Shown piece after piece: positions 27,300 to 32,047 of a stretch of 64,000 nucleotides of DNA; positions within the stretch are counted from its first letter, which is position 1; every line of letters starts with the position of its first letter. The translations under genes and the position numbers were made by a program. This DNA comes from Streptomyces brevispora (GTDB lineage: Bacteria; Actinomycetota; Actinomycetes; Streptomycetales; Streptomycetaceae): NCBI RefSeq assembly GCF_007829885.1, contig NZ_VIWW01000001.1:1550001-1614000 (forward strand), given 5' to 3'. Under the pieces are notes generated by a model. It was not told where the DNA came from. It made no database searches and saw only the letters and a list, made by a program, of their open reading frames with translations.

Positions 27300-30173
27300 T
27301 CATGCCGGAACGATGTTCACCAGCTTCGGCGCACGGACGATCACCTTGCGGATGCCCGCCCCGTCCAGCGCGGCGACCACCGCCGGGTCTGCCAGTGCCA
27401 GGGCCTCCAGCTCCTCGTCCGTGATCGACGGGGAGATCTCCAGGCGCGCCCTGACCTTGCCCTTGATCTGCACCACACAGGTCACGGTCTCGTCGATGAC
27501 GTACGCCGGGTCGGCCACCGGGAAGTCCTGGTGCACGACCGATTCGGTGTGGCCCAGCCGGCGCCACAGCTCCTCGGCGATGTGCGGCGCCAGCGGCGCC
27601 ACCAGCAGCACCAGCCGCTCCGCGACGGAGCGCGGCAGCGGGCCGCCCGCCTTGGTCAGATGGTTGTTCAGCTCGGTGACCTTGGCGATGGCCGTGTTGA
27701 AGCGCATGCCGGCCATGTCCGCGCCGACACCGTCGATCGCCTTGTGCAGGGCACGCAGCGTGTCCTCGCCGGGCTCGGTGTCAACGACGGTGACCTCACC
27801 GCTCTCCTCGTCGACGACATTGCGCCACAGCCGCTGCAGCAGCCGGTACTGGCCGACGACCGCGCGCGTGTCCCAGGGGCGCGACACGTCCAGGGGACCC
27901 ATCGCCATCTCGTACAGGCGCAGGGTGTCCGCACCGTACTCGCCGCAGATCTCGTCGGGCGTCACGGCGTTCTTCAGGGACTTGCCCATCTTGCCCAGGA
28001 CGCGGGAGACCTTCTCGCCCTCGTAGTAGTACGCGCCGTCACGCTCCTCGACCTCGGCCGCCGGGACCGCGATACCGCGGCTGTCCCGGTAGACGAACGC
28101 CTGGATCATGCCCTGGTTGTACAGCTTGTGGAACGGCTCGGTGGAGGAGACGTGGCCCAGGTCGTGCAGCACCTTGGACCAGAAGCGGGCGTACAGCAGG
28201 TGCAGTACGGCGTGCTCGGCACCGCCCACGTACAGGTCGACGCCACCGGTCGGCTGCCCCTCGCGCGGGCCCATCCAGTACTGCTCGATCGCCGGGTCGA
28301 CCAGCTTGGCGGCGTTGTTCGGATCCAGGTAGCGCAGCTCGTACCAGCAGGAACCGGCCCAGTTGGGCATGGTGTTGGTCTCGCGGCGGTAGCTTCGCAG
28401 GCCAGCCCCATCGCCCAGGTCCAGCATGACGTTGACCCAGTCGGCGTTGCGGGACAGCGGGGTCTCGGGCTGGGTGTCGGCGTCGTCCGGGTCGAAGGTG
28501 CGCGGCGAGTAGTCGTCGACCTCCGGCAGCTCCAGGGGCAGCATCGACTCGGGCAGCGGGTGGGCGATGCCCTCCTCGTCGTACACGATCGGGAAGGGCT
28601 CGCCCCAGTAGCGCTGGCGGCTGAACAGCCAGTCGCGCAGCCGGAAGTTGACGGTGCCCTCGCCGACGCCGTGCTCCTTCAGCCAGTCGGTGATGCGGGC
28701 CTTCGCGTCGACGACACCCAGGCCGTCCAGGGAGATCTCGTCGTTCGCGGAGTTGACCAGCTTCGCTTCGTACGAGGCGAAGGCGTCCTCCCACGTCGAG
28801 GCGTCCGTGCCGCGGTCGTCCGACGGCTGGACGACACAGCGCATCGGCAGCTCGAAGGCGCGCGCGAAGGCGAAGTCGCGCGCGTCGTGCGCCGGCACGG
28901 CCATGATCGCGCCGGTGCCGTAGCCCATCAGGACGTAGTCGGCGATGAAGACGGGGATCTGCTCGCCGGTGACGGGGTTGGTGGCGTACGCACCGGTGAA
29001 GACGCCGGTCTTGTCCTTGGCCTCGGCCTGGCGCTCCACGTCGGACTTGGCGGCGGCCTGCTTGCGGTAGGCGGTGACGGCCTCCGCCGGGGAGGCGTAT
29101 CCGCCGGTCCAGACCGGGTGGGTGCCCTCGGGCCAGGCGGCCGGAATGATCCGCTCGACCAACTCGTGCTCGGGCGCCAGCACCATGTACGTGGCGCCGA
29201 ACAGGGTGTCCTGGCGGGTGGTGAACACGGTGATGTCACCGGCGCCGTCGACCGGGAAGTCGACCCGCGCGCCCTCGGAGCGGCCGATCCAGTTGCGCTG
29301 CTGCAGCTTGATGGCCTCGGGCCAGTCCAGCCCGTCCAAGTCGTTCAGCAGCCGGTCGGCGTAGGCGGTGATGCGCATGTTCCACTGGCGCAGCTTGGCC
29401 TTGAAGACGGGGAAGTTGCCGCGCTCGGAGCGGCCGTCGGCCGTGACCTCCTCGTTGGCCAGGACGGTACCCAGGCCGGGCGACCAGTTGACGGGCGCGT
29501 CGGAGGCGTAGGCCAGGCGGTGGCCGCTCAGCACATCGGCGCGCTCCACCGCGCTCAGCGCGCTCCAGTCACGGCCGTCCGGGGCCGGGCGCTCACCGCT
29601 CTCGAACTGGGCGACCAGCTCGGCGATCGGCCGGGCGCGGTCCGCCTCGGAGTCGTACCAGGAGTTGAAGATCTGCAGGAAGATCCACTGGGTCCACTTG
29701 TAGTACTCGGACTCGATGGTGGCGAACGAGCGGCGCTTGTCGTGGCCCAGGCCCAGCCGGCGCAGCTGCGCCGTCATGTTCTCGATATTGGACTCGGTGG
29801 ACAGCCGCGGGTGCGTGCCGGTCTGTACGGCGTACTGCTCCGCGGGCAGGCCGAAGGCGTCGAAGCCCAGGGTGTGCAGGACGTTGTGGCCGGTCATCCG
29901 CTGGTGACGGGCGAAGACATCGGTGGCGATGTAGCCCAGCGGGTGGCCGACGTGCAGGCCCGCACCCGAGGGGTACGGGAACATGTCCATGATGAATTTC
30001 TTCGGCTTGGCGGCCAGCTCCGGATTGTCCGCCAGGTCGCCGCTCGGGTTGGGTGCCTCGTAGGTGCCCTCGGCGTCCCAGAAGTCCTGCCAGCGTGCCT
30101 CGATGTCGGCGGCCATCGCTGCCGTATAGCGGTGCGGCGCAGCAACGTCGGCTGCGGAATTCGTCTCGCTCAT
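27300..30173 (-). CDS. leuS: Leucine--tRNA ligase
   Basis: A 957-residue class I aminoacyl-tRNA synthetase. The HIGH-type motif is HVGH at 74-77 ([17 protein letters not shown]), a CP1 editing domain follows (about 250-450), and the KMSKS-type motif reads KMGKS at 728-732, the actinobacterial form. ATG 30173 (MSETNSAAD) has GAGG seven bases upstream; an in-frame ATG at 30200 would bring no better site. The 5' region encodes a leucine-rich leader peptide and an intrinsic terminator, so expression is probably controlled by leucyl-tRNA supply through ribosome-mediated attenuation (separate entries). Confidence 0.97.
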
Positions 30174-30241: not shown

Positions 30242-30265
30242 AAAAATCCCCTCGCACAGGAGGGG
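30242..30265 (-). terminator. Attenuator terminator before leuS
   Basis: CCCCTC pairs with GAGGGG around a 6-nt loop, followed on the transcribed strand by A and five T. It ends 69 bp before the leuS start, inside the leader, so it is an attenuator and not the end of an upstream gene. Confidence 0.85.
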
Positions 30266-30310
30266 ACGCCGCGCCGATGCCGACCAGGCATTCTCACCGG
30301 TCGGGAGTGA

Positions 30311-30349
30311 TCAGCGCGGCTCGCTAAGCAGAAGGCGTACGGCACGCAT
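30311..30349 (-). CDS. leuS leader peptide MRAVRLLLSEPR
   Basis: Twelve codons, ATG at 30349 to TGA at 30311, with consecutive CTT-CTG-CTT leucine codons at positions 6-8. CTT is a rare leucine codon in this high-G+C genome, which would sharpen sensitivity to charged tRNA-Leu. The Shine-Dalgarno is weak, so the message may start close to the ATG. Confidence 0.75.
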   Translation of the reverse strand: MRAVRLLLSEPR

Positions 30350-30519
30350 GGCGCCAGGGTACCGCACAGGCCCGGCGGCCACCCGGGCGCCGCCGATCCG
30401 TGGACACGGCGGGACATGAAACGTATGGCGACCCGTCCGATTCGGCGGTACGGCGGGGCCGATCGGGCCCTGCACGCCGACCGGTCTGCGGCAGCGGCCG
30501 CAGTTGACGTGACACAAAC

Positions 30520-30568: not shown

Positions 30569-30641
30569 TGGAGCTAAGGAGAATTGAACTCCTGACCTCC
30601 TGCATGCCATGCAGGCGCTCTACCAACTGAGCTATAGCCCC
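30569..30641 (-). tRNA. tRNA-Ala (anticodon GGC)
   Basis: A 73-nt cloverleaf: acceptor GGGGCTA pairs with TAGCTCC (one G-T), D arm AGCTCAGTTGGTAGAGC, anticodon stem CCTGC/GCAGG with loop ATGGCAT giving anticodon GGC, T arm AGGAG-TTCAATT-CTCCT, discriminator A. The 3' CCA is not encoded. Identical to the copy at 31975-32047. Confidence 0.97.
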
Positions 30642-31974: not shown

Positions 31975-32047
31975 TGGAGCTAAGGAGAATTGAACTCCTG
32001 ACCTCCTGCATGCCATGCAGGCGCTCTACCAACTGAGCTATAGCCCC
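31975..32047 (-). tRNA. tRNA-Ala (anticodon GGC), second copy
   Basis: Identical over all 73 positions to the tRNA at 30569-30641; identity extends to about 76 bp (30567-30642 and 31973-32048) and then stops. The pair forms a 76-bp direct repeat 1.4 kb apart. Confidence 0.97.

Follow-up and report, generated by a model that had tools for sequence, protein, structure and literature searches.

A leucine-codon leader and two abutting hairpins upstream of the leucyl-tRNA synthetase gene of Streptomyces brevispora

Can a ribosome translating a short leucine-rich open reading frame decide whether transcription continues into leuS, and if so, through which RNA structure? The question is raised by a locus in a 64,000-nucleotide stretch of the Streptomyces brevispora genome (hereafter the window), where a preliminary description had proposed a leucine leader peptide followed by an attenuator. 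The 12-codon ORF with three consecutive leucine codons, two of them CTT, had been placed correctly to the base (30349-30311; codons 30334-30326), as had the terminator with its T5 run 69 bp before leuS. The proposed pairing of 30314-30320 with 30268-30274 (GCCGCGC:GCGCGGC) is real and extends to 11 bp. The elements of the locus are the following.

30356..30361, minus strand: -10 hexamer TACCCT, 6 nt 5' of the leader ATG; a leaderless transcript is expected.
30349 (ATG) to 30311 (TGA), minus strand: leader ORF leuL, 12 codons, MRAVRLLLSEPR; an identical peptide is reported in PMC8079986.
30326..30334, minus strand: regulatory leucine codons CTT CTG CTT; CTT is third in 150 of 155 leaders.
30310..30320, minus strand: stem arm A, GCCGCGCUGAU, formed by the Pro, Arg and stop codons; conservation and covariation.
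30268..30278, minus strand: stem arm A', AUCGGCGCGGC; conservation and covariation.
30246..30267, minus strand: terminator hairpin GUCCCCUC-CUGUGC-GAGGGGAU, without a gap to A'.
30242..30246, minus strand: terminator U-tract, U5, its end 69 nt 5' of the leuS ATG.
27300..30173, minus strand: leuS, leucyl-tRNA synthetase, ATG at 30173, without CTC or CTT codons.

The 5' arm of the A:A' stem (30320-30310 with 30278-30268) is thus the end of the ORF itself, and the terminator stem is formed by GTCCCCTC and GAGGGGAT (30267-30260 and 30253-30246). From the end of the leader ORF to the leuS ATG at 30173 there are 138 nt. Upon folding, the 141-nt leader was more stable than all of 200 shuffled sequences (z = -4.2). 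An Rfam scan of the window returned two tRNAs as its sole matches, so that the leader falls in no Rfam family, and a T-box riboswitch was discarded because no T-box or specifier-loop match was found in the window. The two tRNA genes upstream of leuS (30569-30641 and 31975-32047, minus strand) have equal Rfam scores and are 1.4 kb apart, the former being followed by a strong terminator-like hairpin of 18 bp (30558-30519).

The locus itself is already known. For S. coelicolor and S. avermitilis, attenuators preceding leuS had been predicted and called classical (Seliverstov 2005, PMC1262725), and an RNA-seq study of S. lividans described leuL2, which encodes the same peptide MRAVRLLLSEPR on a leaderless transcript followed by a hairpin and uridines (Droste 2021, PMC8079986). 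Given these published attenuators, our locus is the orthologue of a known element. In the open-access literature we found no further study of the leuS leader, subscription journals being outside the scope of the search. What is new here is the wide distribution of the element, its covariation, the abutment of the two hairpins and the matching codon choice of leuS.

The preliminary description had suggested an alignment of leuS upstream regions as a check, and this confirmed that the observation is a real feature. The leader is present in all Streptomyces genomes whose leuS upstream region was read, with ORF and stems kept, and also in many other families. In a structured search, 155 loci had the ORF, the stem and the terminator together, arranged in a rigid order: a TAnnnT box, leucine codons with the rare CTT last, two codons, arm A, a loop, A', 0-3 nt and the terminator. 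A' and the terminator were 0-3 nt apart at all 155 loci while the inner loop ranged from 6 to 53 nt, the range of observed gaps being partly conditioned by the search, which required a terminator near A' and allowed gaps of -2 to +7. Arm A begins 5 nt past the last leucine codon in 155 of 157 leaders. The leucine run is followed by two codons ending in G and then nearly always by CCG CGC TGA (among leaders sharing this spacing, CCG for Pro in 153/153 and CGC for Arg in 149/153). The stop codon comes before A in three lineages (L152, L159 and L176), and the stem is kept with different base pairs; since the leader stops ahead of A in these lineages, arm A is no longer coding there. On 32 diverse sequences, 97.3% of the cells pair and changes on both sides occur in 6 of 16 pairs, a covariation score that was reached by none of 500 shuffles and by no slid control; both stems covary. 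The TAnnnT box lies 6-7 nt 5' of the start codon in 155/155 leaders versus 46 of 3100 random positions, a placement that agrees with the leaderless transcript reported for S. lividans. In lineages without the leader (L145, L147-L150, L160-L163), a TAnnnT often stands a few bases 5' of the start codon of leuS itself, as if its transcript were leaderless (judged by eye). Abutting stems are not a general trait of terminators: the window together with 400 kb of the same genome holds 29 terminator-like sites, of which only the one at leuS has such a stem, compared with 52 of 1260 random positions.

The leucine codons themselves are strongly constrained. Codon 1 is CTT in 126 of 155 leaders, codon 2 is CTG in 133 and codon 3 is CTT in 150, although CTT makes up only 2.3% of the leucine codons of the genes sampled from the window genome. 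Such persistence of a rare codon, together with the fixed spacing from the leucine codons to the stem, argues against a constitutive partial terminator that merely follows a conserved non-regulatory short ORF. In favor of the latter, regulation of ilvB in S. coelicolor is reported to have been unaffected when the regulatory codons of its leader were replaced (PMC1262725), an observation that also counts against the mechanism proposed below. Family members upstream of ilvB and cimA, however, swap the leucine codons for Ile/Val codons, and we regard a constitutive terminator as very improbable.

The leader has a short ORF with a run of leucine codons, a terminator before the gene and, as predicted by folding, a structure that depends on the position of the ribosome. 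We folded the leaders with a ribosome placed at each leucine codon or at the stop codon, taking the ribosome to cover 13 nt beginning with the first base of the A site. The probability of A:A' was 0.98 with the ribosome at the first leucine codon, 0.77 at the second, 0.25 at the third and 0.00 at the stop codon. The terminator was predicted at every ribosome position (mean probability 0.88-0.97). Prior to emergence of the 3' arm, the 5' arm of the terminator was paired with a mean probability of only 0.03 (first leucine codon), 0.22 (third) and 0.40 (stop). In these models A:A' is the only element gated by the ribosome, and there is no competition for bases between it and the terminator. The stems lie side by side and can coexist, rather than excluding each other as the "alternative pairings" of the preliminary description would have it, and no antiterminator overlapping the terminator 5' arm was found, the gap being 0-3 nt. 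Of the leucine attenuator that it had proposed, the leader peptide, the terminator and the leuS target stand, being conserved and published with the same peptide, while the classical antiterminator step does not.

These folds bear directly on whether the leader is a classical attenuator of the trp type, in which a base-paired antiterminator takes the terminator 5' arm and A:A' serves as protector hairpin. Besides the published designation as classical, this reading can draw on the window sequence, where pairing of A' with the loop of the terminator (GCGCGG:CUGUGC) is possible and would enclose the 5' arm, and on the retention of the loop CTGTGC in 124 of 155 leaders. Against it, the terminator prevails in every ribosome state with its 5' arm mostly unpaired beforehand, and a stop-codon ribosome sitting on A would favor readthrough when leucine is plentiful, which is the wrong sign. 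Moreover, the pairing of A' with the loop was too weak in folding and is lost in distant members, whose loops (CCCG, CCA, CATGTC) do not allow it. We therefore consider a trp-type switch improbable. Two other candidate antiterminators were dropped, namely an extension of A:A' into the terminator arm, which is not conserved (by eye), and, on inspection, pairing of the leucine codons with the terminator 3' arm, because the ribosome covers these codons in both states.

A different possibility is that A:A' aids termination, as part of a two-part terminator or as a pause hairpin, and that a stall at the second or third leucine codon breaks it and so causes readthrough. A:A' is indeed lost with the ribosome at the third codon, gapless stacking of the two helices is possible, and the sequence from A' to the loop fits the pause consensus G-10 Y-1 G+1 as read from the sequence. 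But the first hungry codon, the first leucine codon, leaves A:A' intact, and a ribosome at the stop codon breaks A:A' as well, so that plenty would look like shortage. We find this unlikely.

Since the terminator forms in all ribosome states, base pairing offers no account of readthrough, and if a shortage of leucine induces leuS, it must be through its position that A:A' hinders the terminator. We think it probable that A:A', formed when the ribosome stalls, blocks the adjacent terminator and switches leuS on. Of this model, the layout, its conservation and covariation, the gating of A:A' by the ribosome in folding and the codon purge are shown, and we infer the direction of the response, the blocking step and the tRNA sensed. 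The leaderless mRNA would begin at or beside the leader ATG, and its 12-codon leader would be translated by a ribosome that follows RNA polymerase. If tRNA-Leu is poorly charged, above all the isoacceptor reading CTT and CTC, the ribosome would stall at the first leucine codon with its leading edge just short of arm A, allowing the 10-11 bp A:A' hairpin to form. The stem of a terminator has to form inside the exit channel of the polymerase, close to the RNA-DNA hybrid, and a rigid helix 0-3 nt upstream would occupy the narrow part of this channel, so that A:A' could stop completion of the stem and let polymerase read through into leuS. With plentiful leucyl-tRNA, the ribosome would reach the stop codon and cover A, A:A' could not form and the terminator would work. 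Induction of leuS when charged tRNA-Leu or leucine is short, as the preliminary description had supposed, is likely and the reading we favor.

The codon choice of leuS itself is equally unusual. Its 79 leucine codons comprise 76 CTG, 2-3 TTG and no CTC or CTT, versus about 40% CTC/CTT in other genes. Among 265 sampled genes of the window genome, on which all our codon ranks rest, leuS is the extreme case by a wide margin (binomial 3.7e-18 with 40% expected), followed by a gene at 8.6e-5 that is probably a shadow ORF and then by leuA with 4/36. In 57 other leuS genes (from Streptomyces and a relative) CTC and CTT account for 44 of 2682 leucine codons. High expression is ruled out as the cause, as the CTC/CTT share is 63% in EF-Tu and 68% in EF-G; in valS it is 39%. 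Under standard decoding rules, the tRNA-Leu with anticodon GAG would read both CTT and CTC, and a leuS mRNA that is nearly CTG-only would still be translatable when this tRNA is uncharged. Attenuators use starvation-sensitive codons for a reason given by Elf and Ehrenberg (PMC1183508), and the leuS codon pattern is the complement of their attenuator-codon rule; the purge from leuS of the codons tested by its leader fits selective tRNA charging.

Purge and leader tend to occur together. Outside Streptomyces, leuS genes with at most 5% CTC+CTT were found in 13 of 21 cases with a leader versus 1 of 19 without (Fisher p 0.0002, inflated by relatedness), and at the family level, with Streptomyces counted, 6 of 13 with a leader were purged versus 0 of 8 without (p 0.03). 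In several leader-bearing families leuS is unpurged, and the retention of CTC in leuS by some of them speaks against the blocking model. In one genome, G230 (L211), no leader was found and leuS has 3% CTC/CTT; the leader may have been lost or may lie elsewhere. In the window genome the own amino acid shows the strongest codon bias in 5 of 8 rankable synthetases, namely leuS, valS (L179), alaS (L349), serS (L344) and a ThrRS-like gene (L345), and ranks 4 in proS, 9 in ileS and 10 in thrS. Because valS shifts in the same way as EF-Tu and EF-G, expression could explain its bias.

A covariance model of the element matched 130 of 297 genomes of the class, in 58 of 114 genera, with merely a few weak-to-moderate matches outside the class. 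In genomes whose leuS was also located, the matches sit just 5' of it with few exceptions. In six genomes of one family (L270-L275) the element lies before a cimA-like gene (citramalate/isopropylmalate synthase-like, by sequence reading), as exemplified by the leader MPSQVLIIVRRAG, and in another family (L279-L282) and at L276 it precedes an ilvB-like gene. These leaders (L270-L275; L276, L279-L282; L307) carry Ile/Val/Leu codons and have the same layout of a stem abutting a terminator. The ilvB leader of the window genome, MRTRILVLGKRVG, which is the same peptide as S. lividans ilvL (PMC8079986), folds alike with its stem flush against the terminator. Such a structure was present at 16 of 30 ilvB loci of the class, 11 of them with a gap of 0, in a permissive search that allowed gaps of up to 11 and may have returned some spurious cases. 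More tentatively, and with somewhat less than even confidence, we suggest that the leuS, ilvB and cimA leaders form one class in which the antiterminator blocks by abutment, and that synthetase genes, most of all leuS, have been purged of those synonymous codons for their own amino acid that respond most to starvation.

At leuS, one essential gene joins a sensor codon, CTT, a body without a codon for the same tRNA and a putative switch of two hairpins that touch. Should abutment be enough to block a terminator, the usual requirement that an antiterminator overlap its terminator would be too narrow. For high-GC bacteria, the leuS codon pattern offers a natural test of the theory of selective charging. 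Further attention is best given to the layout of abutting hairpins and to the purge of codons from leuS.

Among known systems, the leuL2-leuS loci of S. lividans, S. coelicolor and S. avermitilis show no difference from ours, with an identical peptide (S. lividans), a leaderless transcript, a terminator and leuS downstream. The LEU element of actinobacterial leuA also has a leucine-rich leader ORF, but is described as pairing with the ribosome-binding site of leuA in a pseudoknot and as having no clear terminator (PMC1262725); because a terminator is present and covaries here, the leuS leader does not match that description. A parallel in sign is the M. tuberculosis ilvB1 leader, where a stall frees an anti-terminator downstream of the ribosome and a stop-codon ribosome masks it, and where replacement of the regulatory codons in a reporter gave low, non-inducible expression (PMC13236596). 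Regulatory codons and a terminator are likewise common to both, and the proposed leuS response agrees with it in direction. Compared by description and not by sequence, ilvB1 differs in its LVVI codons, its biosynthetic operon and its structures, which are described as mutually exclusive (PMC13236596). As in the trp, his and leu attenuators of E. coli and Salmonella, the position of the ribosome on a short ORF would decide termination, and in their leu leader the regulatory codon is also rare; those attenuators, however, use overlapping alternative stems, whereas the stems of the leuS leader abut with no overlap.
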